A DNA stretch of 64,000 nt from Bradyrhizobium betae (GTDB taxonomy: Bacteria; Pseudomonadota; Alphaproteobacteria; Rhizobiales; Xanthobacteraceae). The stretch is from the NCBI RefSeq assembly GCF_008932115.1, contig NZ_CP044543.1, positions 3,044,501 to 3,108,500 on the forward strand, in the 5' to 3' direction. Shown one piece after another: positions 53,802 through 61,317 of this stretch. A program made the translations under genes and the position numbers. The notes beneath the pieces are model-generated. The model saw nothing but the letters and a program-made list of their open reading frames with translations, searched no databases and was not told where the DNA came from. How positions within the stretch are numbered: the stretch's first letter is position 1; each line of letters starts with the position of its first letter.

Positions 53802-54043
53802 GCCGCTCGTCCCTCTCATTCACGGCGGCGAGCACACCACACGCACGATTACGGGTCCAGTAATGGTACGGATTAGCTGGCATTCCCGATTCTGCCATCA
53901 TTGTTGGCGTTGATTCGGACATCCGCGGTCCCCTTTGGATCGGGCAGGGCACGTCCTGAGCGAGAAGAGCTCAGCATCGAGAAGCGATGCACGTTCGCGT
54001 GGCGTTTCCCCAGACCCCGGCACTCCAAAGGATTCATCTTCCA

Positions 54044-54781
54044 ATGCACACGATCGTACTCGCCACCCAAAAGGGCGGCAGCGGCAAGAGCACCCTCGCC
54101 ATCGGCCTCGCGCTGGCAGCCAGGCAGGCCGGCTTCACCGTCCGCCTGATCGAGACCGACCCGCAGGGCACCCTGTCCAACTGGCTGCGCCGCCGCAACA
54201 ATGACGACGTCGTCGTCGAGCCGATCTATCAGGCCGCCGATATCGAGCCGCGCCTGAAGATGCTGGCTGACAGCAGCCTGCAGATTGCGATCGTCGACAC
54301 CGCGGCCGGCCTGTCCGCCGCCACCACCGCCGCGATCCGCTACTCCGACCTCTGCCTGATCCCGGCCCGCCCGAGCGTCGCCGACATCGAGGCGACGGTC
54401 TCCACCCTCAGCGTCGCGCGCGCCTGGAAGCGTCCCTACAGTTTCGTGCTGAACCAGACGCCGATCCGCGGCCAGCGCATCGACAACGCCGCCAACACGC
54501 TCGCCGAGGAAGCCGCGCTCGATCTCGCCGACGTGCTCGCGCGCCCGCTGATCGTGATGCGCAACGACCACCAGGACTCGCTCGCCAGCGGCCTCGCCGT
54601 CAGCGAATTCGCACCGAACGGCAAGTCGGCGGACGAGATCCGCGGCCTCTGGCGCTGGGTCGAGACCCGGCTCGAGCTCGGAGCCACCACCAATGTGCTG
54701 ATCGACCAGGTCATCTCGGCCGCGGACGGCATGCTGCACGTCGCCGCCGAGCTTGCGGCGGACGAAACCCTGGCGTCCTGA
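54044..54781 (+). CDS. Orphan ParA-family ATPase
   Basis: 245 residues. Deviant Walker A motif LATQKGGSGKSTLAIGLALA with the signature first Lys, then LIETDPQGTLSNWLRRRN and IAIVDTAAGLSAATTAAIRY (switch and Walker B). ParA/MinD ATPases position plasmids, chromosomes or protein complexes. No parB or parS is adjacent, so it is an orphan; the partner is unknown. The ATG at 54044 has AAAGGA 11 nt upstream. Two hairpins follow the gene. Confidence 0.88.
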   Translation: MHTIVLATQKGGSGKSTLAIGLALAARQAGFTVRLIETDPQGTLSNWLRRRNNDDVVVEPIYQAADIEPRLKMLADSSLQIAIVDTAAGLSAATTAAIRYSDLCLIPARPSVADIEATVSTLSVARAWKRPYSFVLNQTPIRGQRIDNAANTLAEEAALDLADVLARPLIVMRNDHQDSLASGLAVSEFAPNGKSADEIRGLWRWVETRLELGATTNVLIDQVISAADGMLHVAAELAADETLAS

Positions 54782-55028: not shown

Positions 55029-56059
55029 TCTGTAACGGGCCCTGGTTAGTCAATCCCTTTTTGCGTCGTCCACTCGCCGGGAACCTGCTTCTGTACGGGA
55101 TCGGCGCGGTGGCCGTCGCCTGATGGGGTTCTAGAGAGGAGCAGGTCGGCCAATCTACGGAAGCGTGATCGCATCGACGGATGCGTCGACAACCCGGATG
55201 ACGGCCTGGCCTGATCCATCGTCCCGGCGAAGGGACTTCGCTTCGGGGAGGCTGGTGTGATGCCCGCCCGAATCTGTGTGCTCTTGCTTTAAGCCATGGC
55301 AGTCGTCCTGCGCAGTAGCACTGCATGAACCGCCAGCGTCGCAGTAGCGATCGTCTCGAGGGCCGGATGGCCGGCCACCAGCTCACGGATGCGTGCCGCA
55401 AAACTGCGCTTCGCCGTTTTGCCAACCTTCAATCCGAAGCCGCGCAGGATCCCGCGCAGGCTGTTCTCGATGTCCTGAAGCTTGGCCTGGATCAGCTTGC
55501 GCGCCGTCAGCATCGCACGGGTCTCCTGGGCACTCATCGACTTGCAATGCACCGGCCGGAACCAGCCGAGCCGCATCAATTGCGCGATGTTGCGGGCGTC
55601 GTTACGGTCCGACTTCACCGGCATCGCCTTGAAGGCATCGCTCACGTGCCGCGTTTCCAGGAGCTCGACCGCGAGGCCCTCGTGCTTCATGGCTGTATAA
55701 AGCCACTGAGACAGCGGTCCGGCCTCCAGCCCGATCCTGGCGAGTTCGAACCCGAGCGAGCGGAACCAGCCAATCAGCGCCACAGGCTCGCTGGCAACCT
55801 TGACCTCCCGAACGATCTTTCCGCTCGCGTCGACAACGCACACGCTGGAGCATTCCAATGACACGTCGATTCCGGCATAGTAGTCCATGGTCGTTCCTCC
55901 TTGATGCTTGGAGCGAAGCTTAGGCCTCGACTCCGCTACACCATCAATGTGAGGGACGACCGCAAACCTTCCAGTCAAGCCGCGCGACGCGCGCAATCAA
56001 AATAGCGCCGTAGCTAGCGCGGCTTGACTGGAAGGCCTCCGGGGCCCGTTACCCCATCT
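55029..56059 (-). mobile_element. IS110-family element, second copy with internal deletion
   Basis: Same ends as the copy at 36460-37916: inverted repeats GTAACGGGCCC (55032-55042) and GGGCCCGTTAC (56042-56052), CT cores at 55027-55028 and 56058-56059. Exactly 426 bp of the intact copy (36742-37167) is missing, at 55309/55310; otherwise only three single-base differences were noticed. The left flank GCTGCGCTCCATCCGGGCT is the same REP-like half site. The element ends 11 bp before the mutM stop codon. About 1031 bp. Confidence 0.88.
55289..55888 (-). pseudogene. IS110 transposase with in-frame internal deletion
   Basis: 199 codons. Keeps the RuvC-like N-terminal domain with all DEDD residues, but residues of the Transposase_20 domain, including its catalytic Ser region, are gone; the frame is preserved and only the last six residues (RTTAMA) of the normal C-terminus remain. 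It cannot be active alone. Whether the protein is made, and could interfere with or be complemented by the intact copy, is unknown. Confidence 0.88.
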
Positions 56060-56070
56060 ACGGCGCTACA

Positions 56071-56952
56071 TCACTTCTGACATTTCGGACACCAGAAGGT
56101 CGACCGGCCGTTCTGCGTGAACCGCTTCACCGTGCCGCCGCAGCCGGGCGTCTTGCAGGTCTCGCCTTCGCGATCGTAGACCTTGAAGGAGTGCTGGAAA
56201 TAGCCGAGCTCGCCGGAGGTCTGGCGATGATCGCGCAGTGACGATCCGCCCGCCTTGATGGCGTCGTTCAGCACGGTGTGGATCGCACTCACCAATCGCT
56301 TGGCGTGATCGGTCGGCTCGCCCTTTTTTGTCGACAGCGTCGCGGCGATCCGGCGCGGCGACAGGTGGGAGCGGTGCAGCGCTTCGCAGACATAGATGTT
56401 GCCGAGCCCTGCCACCACGCGCTGGTCGAGCAGTGCGGCCTTCAGGCTCGCGGTCTTGTCCTGACAGGACCGCGCCAGCATCGCCGCATCGAACGCGTTG
56501 CCGAGCGGCTCGGGGCCGAGGTCGCGCAGCAGAGGCTCGTCATCGAGCGCGTTGCGCGCGATCACTTTCATGTAACCGAAGCGGCGCGGGTCGTTGAAGA
56601 CGATGTCGGCGCCGGAGGACATCCGAAACAACACGTGGTCGTGCGCGGAGTCCTTGCCTTTCGGATAGTGAAACTCGCCAGGCGACGCGTCGTTGTCCGG
56701 CTTGATGACGCGGAACGAGCCCGACATGCCCAGATGCATCAGCAGCACGTCGCCGGAGGCGAGATCAGCCATGAGATATTTTGCACGGCGTCCCAGCCCC
56801 GTGACGACCTGTCCCTGGAGCCGGGCCACGAAATCCGGCTGGAACGGAAAGCGCAAATCGGGCCTGCGGGCCTCCGCGACGAGGATTTTCGCACCCTCCA
56901 TGACCGGCTGCAGGCCGCGGCGGACGGTCTCGACTTCGGGCAATTCGGGCAT
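56071..56952 (-). CDS. mutM: Formamidopyrimidine-DNA glycosylase MutM
   Basis: 293 residues. The mature N-terminus [13 protein letters not shown] gives the catalytic Pro and Glu; Lys of the H2TH region and [19 protein letters not shown] follow; the C-terminal zinc finger has Cys in [15 protein letters not shown] and FWCPKCQK. It removes 8-oxoguanine and ring-opened purines. Divergent from ubiE. An IS copy lies immediately behind the gene but does not disrupt it. Confidence 0.97.
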
Positions 56953-57033: not shown

Positions 57034-57795
57034 ATGGATCGGCCGGGCGAAACCACGCATTTTGGCTTCAAGGACGTTCCCCTGGGGGACAAGCAGACGC
57101 TGGTGAACGATGTGTTTCACAGCGTGGCGTCGCGCTATGATTTGATGAACGATCTGATGTCCGGCGGACTGCACCGGGTCTGGAAGGACATCATGATCAA
57201 CGCGCTCAACCCGCCGAGGTCCGACCGGCCGTTCGCGCTGCTCGACGTCGCAGGCGGCACCGGCGACATCTCGTTCCGGGCCGCCGAGGCGGCGGGGCCG
57301 GGCTTTCACGCCACCGTCTGCGACATCAATTCCGGGATGCTGGAGGTCGGCCGCGAGCGCGCCGCCAAGCGGCATCTCGAGACCCAAGTCGATTTCGTCG
57401 AGGGCAATGCCGAAGCGCTCGCCTTCGCGGACCGCAGCTTCGACGCATATACGATCGCTTTCGGCATTCGCAACGTGCCGCGGATCGATCTGGCGCTGAG
57501 CGAGGCCTACCGTGTGCTCAAGCCCGGCAGCCGCTTCCTGTGCCTGGAATTCTCCACCGTCGAGATGCCCGGCCTCGATCGACTTTACGACCTGTTCTCG
57601 TTCAAGGTGATCCCGCCGCTCGGCCGCATGGTCACGGGCGACGCCGAGTCCTACCAGTATTTGGTGGAATCGATCCGCAAGTTCCCGAAGCCCAACGCCT
57701 TTGCCGACATGATCCGCGATGCGGGCTTTTCCCGCGTCAACTGGCAGACATTGTCGGGCGGCATCGTCGCACTGCATTCGGGCTGGCGTTTGTGA
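57034..57795 (+). CDS. ubiE: Ubiquinone biosynthesis C-methyltransferase UbiE
   Basis: 253 residues. SAM-binding [20 protein letters not shown]; family signatures [20 protein letters not shown] and [20 protein letters not shown]. It methylates the benzoquinol ring in ubiquinone synthesis. Its stop overlaps the GTG start of ubiB, a widespread pair. Confidence 0.97.
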
Positions 57796-59366
57796 TCTCT
57801 GCCATCACCCACATTTCGCGCCTGATCCGCGCCGCATTCGTGTTTGCGCGCGAAGGCGTGTTCGGCTCGGTCGATCCGAGCCTGGTGCCGCCGCCCGGGC
57901 AGCTCGCGCTAAAGCTTGCGCGCATCGTCGAGCGGCGTGGCCCTAAAGACGGGCCACGGATGTCGCGCGCGCTGACGCGGATGGGCCCGGCCTATCTCAA
58001 GCTCGGGCAGTTCCTCGCCACGCGCCCCGACGTCGTCGGCGTCATCATGGCGCGCGACCTTGAGAGCCTGCAGGATCGCCTGCCGCCGTTTTCGCAGACC
58101 GAGGCGGAAGCCGTGATCGCGACCTCGCTGGAGCGTCCGGTGGCGGATGTGTTCGCGAACCTCGGCCCGCCGGTCGCGGCCGCCTCGATCGCACAGGTGC
58201 ATCGCGGCGAAGTGGTGCGCGACGGCGTCCGCAAGGCGGTTGCGGTCAAGGTGCTGCGTCCGAACGTGGCCGCGCGCTTCCGCCGCGACCTCTCCGATTT
58301 CTTCTTCGTCGCGCACAAGGCCGAGGCTTACTCGTCCGAGGCGCGGCGGCTGCGCCTGATCGAAGTGATCAACACCATGTCGCGCTCGGTCGCGATGGAG
58401 ATGGACCTGCGGCTCGAAGCCGCCGCGCTGTCGGAGATGGCCGAGAACACGCGGGACGATCCCGATTTCCGGGTGCCGACCGTCGACTGGGACCGCACCA
58501 CGCACAACGTGCTGACGATGGAGTGGATCGATGGCATCGCGCTGAACGATCACAAGCGCCTCGCGGAGTCGCAGGTCGATCTGCCCGATCTCGGCCGCAA
58601 GGTGATCCAGAGCTTTCTGCGGCACGCGCTGCGCGACGGCTTTTTCCACGCTGACATGCATCCGGGCAATCTGTTCCTCGATGACGCCGGCCGCCTGGTC
58701 GCGGTCGATTTCGGCATCATGGGCCGGCTCGGCATGAAGGAGCGGCGTTTCCTCGCCGAGATCCTGCTCGGCTTCATCACCCGTGACTATCGCCGCGTCG
58801 CCGAGGTGCATTTCGAGGCGGGCTACGTGCCCGCGCATCACTCCGTCGAGAATTTCGCGCAGGCCATCCGCGCCATCGGCGAACCCATTCACAACCGCAC
58901 CGCCGAGGAGATCTCGATGGCGCGGCTGCTGACGCTGCTGCTCGAGGTCACCGGCCTGTTCGACATGACGACGCGGCCCGAACTGATCCTGCTGCAGAAG
59001 ACCATGGTGGTGGTCGAGGGCGTGGCGCGCGGCTTCGATCCCAGGCTCGACATCTGGAAGGTCGCCGATCCCGTGGTGCGCGAATGGATCGAGCGCAATC
59101 TCGGACCGATCGGCCGGGTGCAGGGCGCGCTTGCCGGGGGCGGCGACCTCGCCCGCGTGCTGATGCGCCTGCCCGACATCGCGCAGCGTTCGGTCGCAGT
59201 GCTCGAACAGCTTGAAGCCATGACCCGTGACGGCATCCGGCTGTCGCCGGAGAGCATCGCCGCGATGGGCCGCAGCGAGGGCCGCAAGAACCGCTGGCGC
59301 ACCGTCGCGCTCTGGATCATCGCCGCGACCTTCATCGGAATCCTGATCGCAGTCCGGAATCTGTGA
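57792..59366 (+). CDS. ubiB: Ubiquinone biosynthesis kinase-like protein UbiB
   Basis: 524 residues, GTG start at 57792 overlapping the ubiE stop (GTGA). Atypical protein kinase-like (ABC1/ADCK) fold: the KxGQ motif is [18 protein letters not shown], the Ala-rich nucleotide loop is [15 protein letters not shown], the Lys is in AVKVLRPNV, catalytic Asp regions in [15 protein letters not shown] and [12 protein letters not shown]. Two membrane segments may be at the C-terminus ([18 protein letters not shown] is clear). Supports ubiquinone synthesis at the inner membrane. Confidence 0.96.
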
Positions 59367-59403
59367 TTGCACTGCAATCATATGATTGATAGCATCGCTA
59401 TCA
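59366..59403. promoter_or_regulatory. Three adjacent palindromes upstream of coaBC (candidate RHH operator)
   Basis: ATTGCA-C-TGCAAT (59366-59378), AATCATATGATT (59376-59387) and TGATAGC-ATC-GCTATCA (59387-59403) follow one another without gaps, 19 bp before the coaBC start and right at the ubiB stop. Each is perfect. Ribbon-helix-helix proteins bind such short inverted repeats, and coaBC starts with such a domain. Confidence 0.6.
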
Positions 59404-59422
59404 TCCGTGCTGGAGGGACGTC

Positions 59423-60862
59423 ATGGCAAGCCTGACCATCCGCAAGCTCGACGAGGGCGTCAAAACCTATCTGCGCCTGCGCTCGGCCAGGAACCGCAGG
59501 TCGGTCGAGGAAGAAGTGCGGGTCATCCTCGGCGAGCTGATCGAGGGCCGCGAGGAGCCGCTGACGCCGTTCGCGCCGCCGCCGGCCCCATCCACGGCCC
59601 CCACGCCGCAGCGCATCGGCGCCGTCGCAGAGGCCAGCGTCACCCTGATCATTGGCGGCGGGATCGCGGCCTACAAATCGCTGGACCTGATCCGCCGGCT
59701 CAAGGAGCGCCGCATCGAGGTCCGCTGCGTGCTGACCAAGGCGGCGCAGCAATTCGTCACGCCGCTGGCGGTGAGCGCGCTCTCGCACGAGCGCGTCTAC
59801 ACCGATCTGTTCGACCCCCAGAGCGAGTTCGACGCCGGCCATATCCGGCTGGCGCGCGAGTGCGACTTGATCGTGGTGGCGCCAGCGACGGCCGACCTGA
59901 TGGCGAAGATGGCCAACGGCCATGCCGACGATCTCGCCAGCGCCATCCTGCTCGCCACCAACCGCAAGATCCTGCTGGCGCCGGCGATGAATCCGCTGAT
60001 GTGGAACAACGCGGCGACCCGCCGCAACGTTGGCTTGCTTCAGCGCGACGGCGTGGTGCTGATCGGCCCGAATTCCGGCGAGATGGCCGAGGCGGGCGAG
60101 GCCGGTGTCGGCCGCATGTCCGAGGCGATCGAGATCGCCACCGCCGCCGAGCGCCTGCTGCGGCCGCCGGTGCCGCGCCCGCTCGCCGGCAAGCGCGTGC
60201 TGATCACCGCAGGCCCCACGCACGAGCCGATCGATCCGGTGCGCTACATTGCCAACCGCTCCTCCGGCAAGCAGGGCTTTGCCATTGCCGCCGCCGCACA
60301 GGCCGCGGGCGCCGAGGTGATTTTGGTGAGCGGCCCGGTCGATCTCGCCGATCCCCGGGGCGTCACGGTGAAGCACGTCGAATCGGCGCGGCAGATGCTG
60401 GAGCAGGTGCAGGCCGCGCTTCCCGCCGACATCGCCATCTTCGCCGCCGCCGTTGCCGACTGGCGCGTCGCCAACGAAGGCGAGCAGAAGCTGAAGAAGA
60501 CCTCGGCCGGCATGCCGCCGCTCCAACTGGTCGAGAACCCCGACATCCTCGCCACGATCTCCAAGCTGACCGACAACCGTCCGCCGCTGGTGATCGGCTT
60601 TGCCGCCGAGACCGAGCACCTCATCGACAACGCCAAGTCCAAGCTGGCCCGCAAGGGCTGCGACTGGATCGTCGCCAACGACGTCTCGCCCGCAACAGGC
60701 GTGATGGGCGGCGACCGCAACACTGTTCATCTCATAAGTCGGAAGCACGGCGAGATTGCAGTTGATTCCTGGCCGGTGATGACCAAGGAACAGGTCGCCA
60801 TCGAACTGGTCGCGCATGTCGCCAAGAGCGTGACCGGAAAAGCCCCGGAGTCCGCATCTTGA
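59423..60862 (+). CDS. coaBC: CoaBC (phosphopantothenoylcysteine decarboxylase / phosphopantothenate-cysteine ligase) with N-terminal FitA-type ribbon-helix-helix domain
   Basis: 479 residues. Residues 1-45 ([40 protein letters not shown]) match the FitA/VapB-type antitoxin ribbon-helix-helix DNA-binding domain. A Pro-rich linker ([18 protein letters not shown]) leads to the CoaC flavoprotein: [19 protein letters not shown], catalytic His in [20 protein letters not shown], Asn in [13 protein letters not shown]. CoaB follows: [36 protein letters not shown]. It makes 4'-phosphopantetheine for CoA. The ATG at 59423 is set by GGAGGG 6 nt upstream. dut overlaps the stop. No PIN toxin gene is adjacent. 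Confidence 0.93.
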
Positions 60863-61317
60863 GCACTGAGGTCACTGTCGAACTGCAGCAACTCGCCCAC
60901 GCCGAGGGCCTGCCGCTGCCGGCCTATCAGACCGCGGACGCCGCCGGCCTCGATTTGATGGCCGCGGTGCCGGACAGCGAACCGATGACGCTCGCCCCCG
61001 GCCAATACGCGCTGGTGCCGACGGGGCTCGCGATCGCGCTGCCGCCCGGGCACGAGGCGCAGGTGCGGCCGCGCTCCGGTCTTGCCGCCAAGCACGGCGT
61101 CACCGTGCTGAACTCACCGGGCACGATCGACGCGGACTACCGCGGCGAGATCAAGGTGATCCTGATCAACCACGGCGCGGGCCCCTTCGTGATCAAGCGC
61201 GGCGAGCGCATCGCGCAGATGGTGATCGCGCCCGTGCTGCAGGCCACGCTGGTTCCGGCCGCAACATTGTCCGCGACCGATCGCGGCGCCGGCGGTTTCG
61301 GCTCGACCGGCCGCTAA
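60859..61317 (+). CDS. dut: dUTP diphosphatase (dUTPase)
   Basis: 152 residues, TTG start at 60859 overlapping the coaBC stop (TTGA). The five dUTPase motifs are visible: [48 protein letters not shown] and the C-terminal [12 protein letters not shown]. It hydrolyses dUTP, keeping uracil out of DNA and supplying dUMP. coaBC-dut is a conserved neighbourhood. Confidence 0.95.

Follow-up and report, generated by a model that had tools for sequence, protein, structure and literature searches.

Introduction

Trifunctional PutA, a flavoenzyme with a ribbon-helix-helix (RHH) domain at its N-terminus, is described as an autogenous repressor (PMC5293562). In the FitAB system, the RHH antitoxin FitA attaches to operator DNA as dimers, which FitB toxins tether (PMC3920265). 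Mycobacterial CoaBC forms a dodecamer, and its CoaB is inhibited by CoA and acyl-CoAs, acetyl-CoA competing with CTP and phosphopantothenate (PMC7794376).

The window analysed here, a 64,000-nucleotide stretch of Bradyrhizobium betae (contig NZ_CP044543.1, positions 3,044,501 to 3,108,500), encodes a CoaBC that resembles PutA in being a flavoenzyme with an N-terminal RHH domain and a putative autogenous repressor. PutA is, however, a catabolic enzyme with nutrient-driven membrane switching, whereas this CoaBC is a biosynthetic CoA enzyme with an RHH domain of FitA type, and its candidate operator and evolutionary intermediates appear traceable to linked toxin-antitoxin pairs. With FitAB and VapBC it shares the RHH family (PF22513) and the half-sites found at free FitA-type genes; in contrast to these pairs, the slot in the window has no toxin gene, no antitoxin tail was seen by eye, and CoaBC occupies the place of the toxin gene. 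Both catalytic domains are complete as in canonical CoaBC (Dfp; M. smegmatis, 6TGV), whereas the window protein carries an RHH domain ahead of residue 73; the dodecamer is known for the mycobacterial enzyme.

We consider it very probable (about 0.86) that this RHH-CoaBC, of a kind present in Bradyrhizobium and relatives, binds the coaBC operators with its antitoxin-derived domain and represses its own gene, and that antitoxin-toxin-coaBC operons lost the toxin gene on more than one occasion. The autorepression is suggested by the combination of an antitoxin DNA-binding end with antitoxin-like sites upstream of the gene. If so, PutA would be joined, at CoA synthesis, by a second clear example of a flavoenzyme of metabolism acting as its own RHH repressor. 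Living relatives also display at a single locus, which is rare, an antitoxin-toxin pair in an operon with an essential gene, an antitoxin-enzyme fusion with the tail still present and one reduced to the DNA-binding domain, and the conversion of toxin-antitoxin parts to host regulators becomes testable at coaBC with a defined operator and with RHH-less and pair-bearing controls.

A text search of mostly open-access literature found no paper pairing CoaBC with ribbon-helix-helix or phosphopantothenoylcysteine with antitoxin, and broader searches showed nothing on the fusion among their top-listed papers. The terms pantothen-, CoaBC, Dfp and flavoprotein were all absent from a 2009 toxin-antitoxin survey (PMC2701414). 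Within the scope of this literature, the operator, its co-occurrence with the RHH domain and the intermediates are unreported. The fusion itself should presumably be visible in domain databases.

The RHH-CoaBC fusion protein

The fusion ORF (59423..60862, + strand) encodes 479 aa. A sequence-only reading of the same DNA had assigned residues 1-45 to a FitA/VapB-type RHH domain joined by a Pro-rich linker to a complete CoaBC enzyme, and all three parts were recovered. The Pfam search detected FitA-like_RHH (PF22513) at residues 2-38 (59426..59536, + strand) with an E-value of 2.3e-13 and a score of 50.3 bits against a gathering cut-off of 27, and the nearest structure in the profile search was N. 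gonorrhoeae FitA (2h1o, E 6.2e-8; 2bsq, E 6.5e-8). Residues 43-67 (59549..59623, + strand) form a Pro/Ala-rich linker predicted to be disordered (AlphaFold2 pLDDT <50). The CoaC flavoprotein (decarboxylase) domain followed at residues 73-232 (59639..60118, + strand; PF02441, E 7.3e-29) and the CoaB (DFP, synthetase) domain at residues 254-438 (60182..60736, + strand; PF04127, E 1.5e-71). The NCBIfam equivalog TIGR00521 (coaBC_dfp) matched residues 72-466 with 391.4 bits (cut-off 219.7), spanning both domains as in a bifunctional CoaBC, and by Pfam and NCBIfam both catalytic domains appear complete. With regard to catalytic activity, conserved columns were seen in the alignment A2. The best PDB match of the whole protein was 6tgv (M. 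smegmatis), with an alignment beginning at residue 73, past the RHH domain. An enzyme and an N-terminal RHH domain thus stand on one chain, as in the architecture of PutA. One coaBC and one PF22513 match were found in the B. betae genome.

The AlphaFold2 model, built from a 41-row alignment, placed the RHH helices at residues 11-24 and 28-42, and the core was mostly confident. The beta ribbon was not predicted with confidence and residues 1-4 had pLDDT <50, as may be expected when a dimeric fold is modelled from a single chain.

A conserved internal start, which would have separated the domain from the enzyme, was not seen; the window has no in-frame ATG, GTG or TTG from residue 41 to the catalytic core, and no start codon lies between RHH and core in 27/62 fused relatives, the other 35/62 having at least one. 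The pooled pN/pS of the window against 17 close relatives was 0.19 for the RHH codons and 0.14 for the core, and the RHH codons look constrained. As there is no in-frame start between RHH and core in the window and the RHH codons have this low ratio, the RHH domain is, judged from these codons, part of the CoaBC protein. The domain could instead be a functionless toxin-antitoxin vestige hitch-hiking on an essential enzyme, as no antitoxin tail was seen by eye between residue 41 and the core in the window or in the linkers of Bradyrhizobium relatives, and many Rhizobiales do without the domain (87/161 loci fall in the class NONE). The RHH pN/pS and the joint retention of domain and operator across diverged genera argue against it, and we regard a vestige as very unlikely.

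The linker sequence was highly variable among fused relatives. In an Afipia MAG (L029/L217), a stop in the linker splits RHH from CoaBC and the operator is intact, which may reflect an assembly error, a frameshift or a real split. A strongly diverged RHH-CoaBC on a long tree branch was present in a 1.5-Mb genome (L211, G164; PF22513 30.9 bits, cut-off 27).

The coaBC locus and its candidate operators

The upstream neighbour of coaBC is ubiB (ABC1 kinase-like; 57540..59366, + strand, ORF as listed; PF03109, E 5.7e-77), whose true start probably lies further inside the listed ORF, and the downstream neighbour is dut (dUTPase; 60859..61317, + strand; PF00692, E 8.6e-34), which overlaps the coaBC stop. 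The order ubiB-[slot]-coaBC-dut was common to L204-L207 and L210. In the window, ubiB and coaBC are separated by 56 bp with no PIN gene between them, in agreement with the sequence-only reading, which had seen no PIN toxin gene nearby; the adjacent toxin gene of a type II antitoxin such as FitA is therefore missing, and coaBC is followed by dut. Further upstream, an IS110-type transposase fragment (55289-55996, - strand; PF01548, E 5e-14) sits between a ParA/CbiA-like gene (53987-54781) and mutM (56071-56952).

The region 59340-59425, proposed earlier for DNA binding, holds two perfect palindromes that the sequence-only reading had not described. The candidate operator 1, TGATTGCACTGCAATCA (59364..59380), is the inverted repeat TGATTGCA-C-TGCAATCA, and the candidate operator 2, TGATAGCATCGCTATCA (59387..59403), is TGATAGC-ATC-GCTATCA; neither is assigned to a strand. 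They are 23 bp apart and lie between the ubiB stop, which overlaps operator 1, and a possible ribosome-binding site GGAGGG read from the sequence (59412..59417, + strand). Operator 2 was found in many Bradyrhizobium relatives. Operator 1 opens with the ubiB stop codon TGA (59364-59366), an overlap shared by several relatives.

Across the 7.42-Mb genome, the pattern TGATNGCNNNGCNATCA matched only operators 1 and 2 ahead of coaBC, and the reversed-pattern control gave no site. With the consensus TGATTGCATTGCAATCA and up to 3 mismatches, the same genome yielded operator 1 (1 mismatch), operator 2, and five others, all at 3. By this comparative footprint, the gene appears to carry its own cognate operators, as putA does. 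A possible promoter, TTGCAC-17 bp-TAGCAT (59367..59395, + strand), was read by eye inside the operators; a consensus promoter scan of the region upstream of coaBC gave no + strand promoter.

Co-occurrence of the operator with the RHH domain

The element was compared between 63 coaBC loci with an RHH domain and 45 without one; the short locus L044 and copies of the window itself were left out. The Afipia locus with the linker stop (L029) was counted as RHH-bearing, and many of the 63 are Bradyrhizobium, some perhaps the same strains. The loci were drawn in part from the best 80 among the matches listed, and as one of the six search words falls in the RHH domain, this set overstates the frequency of the fusion. 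When the best 17-mer was scored at 11 or more of 12 fixed positions, 51/63 RHH-bearing and 0/45 RHH-less loci were positive. The strict palindrome model TGATNGCNNNGCNATCA undercounted, giving low scores to relatives in which the half-site is directly repeated, and it was replaced by a model of half-site pairs. Paired 8-bp half-sites TGATNNCA in either orientation at a 9-bp step reached at least 11/12 in 60/63 RHH-bearing and 0/45 RHH-less loci. Because the consensus was derived from the RHH-bearing set, the fit within that set is partly built in, the controls being the RHH-less set, genome-wide scans and free antitoxins.

Among steps of 8-30 bp, 9 was by far the best, followed by 14 (27/63) and 23 (21/63), which are the distances between the two palindromes. 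As TGATNNCA is nearly palindromic, either orientation of the half-site may serve a two-fold RHH dimer, and some loci contain runs of three half-sites.

A DNA-only search with the stricter pattern TGATWGCNNNGCWATCA matched 52/149 genomes of the window's family and 0/26 RHH-less genomes. Among 29 newly fetched loci with TGATWGCNNNGCWATCA, 23 had the site upstream of a fused RHH-CoaBC at a distance of 33-156 bp. In L273 it preceded a free RHH gene that is itself immediately followed by coaBC, and in the other five it lay at different places. RHH was present in a frame of at least 466 aa in 83 of the 149 family genomes, which means that many variant operators escape TGATWGCNNNGCWATCA. In the sets examined, our computation accordingly confined the candidate operator to RHH-bearing coaBC genes.

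A tree built from 112 clustered CoaBC cores called for 6 changes in fusion state when L029 was treated as fused. The operator was present in 31/34 fused and 1/70 non-fused rows, 104 of the 112 being scored. Only 3 phylogenetically independent pairs on starred branches were available, nearly always in the expected direction (median p 0.25), a number with which the pair test cannot reach significance. The sole non-fused row with an operator was L233 (G182), where TGATTGCATTGCAATCA stands ahead of an RHH-less coaBC. A fragment there resembles a PIN toxin in its C-terminal half (Pfam PIN, E 0.006, 17.6 bits, below the cut-off of 23.6), and no antitoxin was found before coaBC; this locus is probably a decayed toxin-antitoxin module.

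The same element at free FitA-type antitoxin genes

About half of the free antitoxin genes of FitA type examined across the rest of the class carried the element as well. At the 9-bp step, 15/28 genes reached 11 of 12 and 7 more reached 10 of 12, with 13/28 below the full score; the reversed control gave 0. The other steps found with more than two genes were 18 and 27, multiples of 9. The occurrence at 15/28 free antitoxins against none in the control indicates that the site goes with the RHH domain. A -35-like TTGATT, 17 bp and a -10-like TAnnnT were seen by eye around the element at some free antitoxins and at L019, L023 and L030, which would place it in the promoter spacer at these genes. 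The literature text search found no published FitA operator.

Alternatively, the palindromes might be the sites of another regulator of coaBC, with the RHH domain unrelated to them. Their absence from the 45 RHH-less coaBC genes and, as TGATWGCNNNGCWATCA, from the 26 RHH-less genomes, together with their presence at free FitA-type genes, makes such a regulator extremely unlikely.

Distribution of the fusion and proposed evolutionary intermediates

The order-wide search gave 100 RHH matches in 297 genomes, of which 16 were RHH-CoaBC fusions and 84 were not; 17 rows had frames of at least 486 aa, one of which (G034) was an overlapping frame. At least 8 of the 84 non-fusion matches, in 7 genomes, were located in the ubiB-coaBC slot, compared with about 0.01 expected by chance in our own arithmetic. 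Seven genomes coded f35, f16 and f24 have an RHH antitoxin gene some 700 bp ahead of coaBC and reading the same way. Our own profile detected a PIN gene between antitoxin and coaBC at 7/7 of these loci, and four of the PIN genes were confirmed against Pfam.

The genus coded g64 is, by inference, Mesorhizobium-like, as the Mesorhizobium locus L054 groups with L208 and L209 in the tree. RHH matches occurred in 137/146 g64 genomes, the first listed match lying in a frame of at least 489 aa in 103 and in a shorter frame in 33. Forty g64 loci were fetched, comprising the 13 with long-frame matches of a weaker-scoring type (type-2) and 27 from the 33 genomes with a shorter frame. The remaining short matches were G069 and G248, taken from an earlier set, and G985, G996, G998 and G1015, which were left out, as were second, short RHH matches elsewhere in some fusion-bearing g64 genomes. 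All 27 short-frame loci had the order antitoxin-PIN-coaBC, which with the seven loci above makes a PIN gene in 34/34 fetched antitoxin-slot loci, and an operator with loosened half-sites TGA[TC]NNCA was found in 26/27 (reversed control 4/27 at 11 or more). All 13 type-2 loci encoded RHH-CoaBC without a PIN gene; the loosened operator was detected in 5/13 (control 0), 8/13 scoring below 11, and several fused loci under the threshold had variants of TGCTAGCA.

Several type-2 linkers keep nearly the whole antitoxin tail, as seen in L329 (LYAAIRRSVEPHGGFDVDLPERGPARRPPQF) compared with the pair-bearing L345 (LYAAIRRLVEPHGGFDIELPERGPAREPPKF). Such near-complete tails would suit a fused domain still acting as antitoxin for a PIN toxin encoded elsewhere, a function that we regard as very unlikely, as no antitoxin tail was seen by eye in the Bradyrhizobium fusions and no PIN gene lies in the ubiB-coaBC slot. 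In L328, the first antitoxin gene is retained and the second is fused to CoaBC, and in L273 an antitoxin gene about 50 bp ahead of coaBC leaves no room for a PIN gene. As junctions and tails differ, the fusion probably arose several times. Tandem RHH antitoxin genes before coaBC were also observed in L341-L343, L362-L367 and L208 as well as L328; the duplicated-antitoxin modules of L341-L343 and L362-L367 contain a PIN gene, and that of L328 does not.

A class-wide search for fusions outside the order gave A1 matches in at least 84 of 385 genomes, mostly in short frames among the matches listed. Besides two genomes of the same genus, the frames near CoaBC length or longer among the matches listed were G340 (397 aa), G650 (397 aa) and G361 (802 aa, partial match). 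G340 and G650 were rejected as fusions, the fetched regions containing no CoaBC match.

Proposed autorepression by CoaBC

The sequence-only reading had suggested that the RHH domain was recruited to bind the enzyme's own promoter, and this gains support from the operator co-occurrence, the free-FitA operator and the intermediate gene orders, all of them comparisons of sequence. The N-terminal domain would be a domesticated DNA-binding domain of a FitA-type antitoxin. We infer binding, and repression rather than activation, as follows: RHH dimers displayed on the CoaBC oligomer would occupy TGATNNCA half-sites, paired at the 9-bp step, across the coaBC promoter. Transcription of coaBC would thereby be repressed and would fall as CoaBC accumulates, so that CoaBC sets its own level. 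The oligomer would supply the bridging once given by the toxin. As to its origin, a FitAB-type pair may have entered the ubiB-coaBC gap, whereby coaBC came to stand third in a unit under autoregulation; with loss of the PIN toxin gene, antitoxin and CoaBC would have become one protein that kept the antitoxin's operator. This direction and number of steps, toxin loss and fusion having happened more than once, are likewise our interpretation.

In a stronger form of this autorepression, which is not an exclusive rival to it and corresponds to the direct metabolic feedback suggested by the sequence-only reading, CoA, acyl-CoA, phosphopantothenate or the FMN state would alter DNA binding, and transcription would follow CoA demand. 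The inhibition of mycobacterial CoaB by CoA and acyl-CoAs indicates that the enzyme can sense its end product (PMC7794376), and in PutA the reduction of the flavin by proline strengthens binding to the membrane, while affinity for DNA drops about 2-fold (PMC5293562). On the other hand, no allosteric path is visible between the core and the RHH domain, the linker being predicted to be disordered and widely variable in sequence. Plain concentration-dependent autorepression fits equally well, and ligand gating is regarded as a tentative extension with clearly less than an even chance. A bolder and more doubtful proposal is that CoaBC has assumed the entire regulatory part of a toxin-antitoxin complex, that its oligomer bridges RHH dimers as FitB does and that CoA or acyl-CoA on CoaB gates this bridging. 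Sensor, enzyme and repressor would then be one protein, and the coaBC slot of Rhizobiales would repeatedly turn selfish toxin-antitoxin pairs into metabolic regulators.

Operator-like sites elsewhere in the genomes

A regulon beyond coaBC was not supported. A looser pattern matched in 27 of the 39 RHH-bearing genomes scanned (a set of 40 without L019). Inspected by eye, those matches that differ from the strings upstream of coaBC in the same genome all had C or G at one or both variable positions; one of them, in G692, is in the mutM region. The five family sites without RHH were L263, L267, L268, L270 and L283. In L267, L268 and L283, TGATTGC...GCAATCA lies within a longer shared repeat, CCGATCTGATTGC...GCAATCAGATCGG. 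A second operator-like palindrome was thus observed in this region in G692 and also in G802 (L217, near 8166; L263, at 1501), the one in L217 being about 3.7 kb from the coaBC site. At least three TGATWGCNNNGCWATCA sites each were present in G077, G851, G830, G878 and G810.
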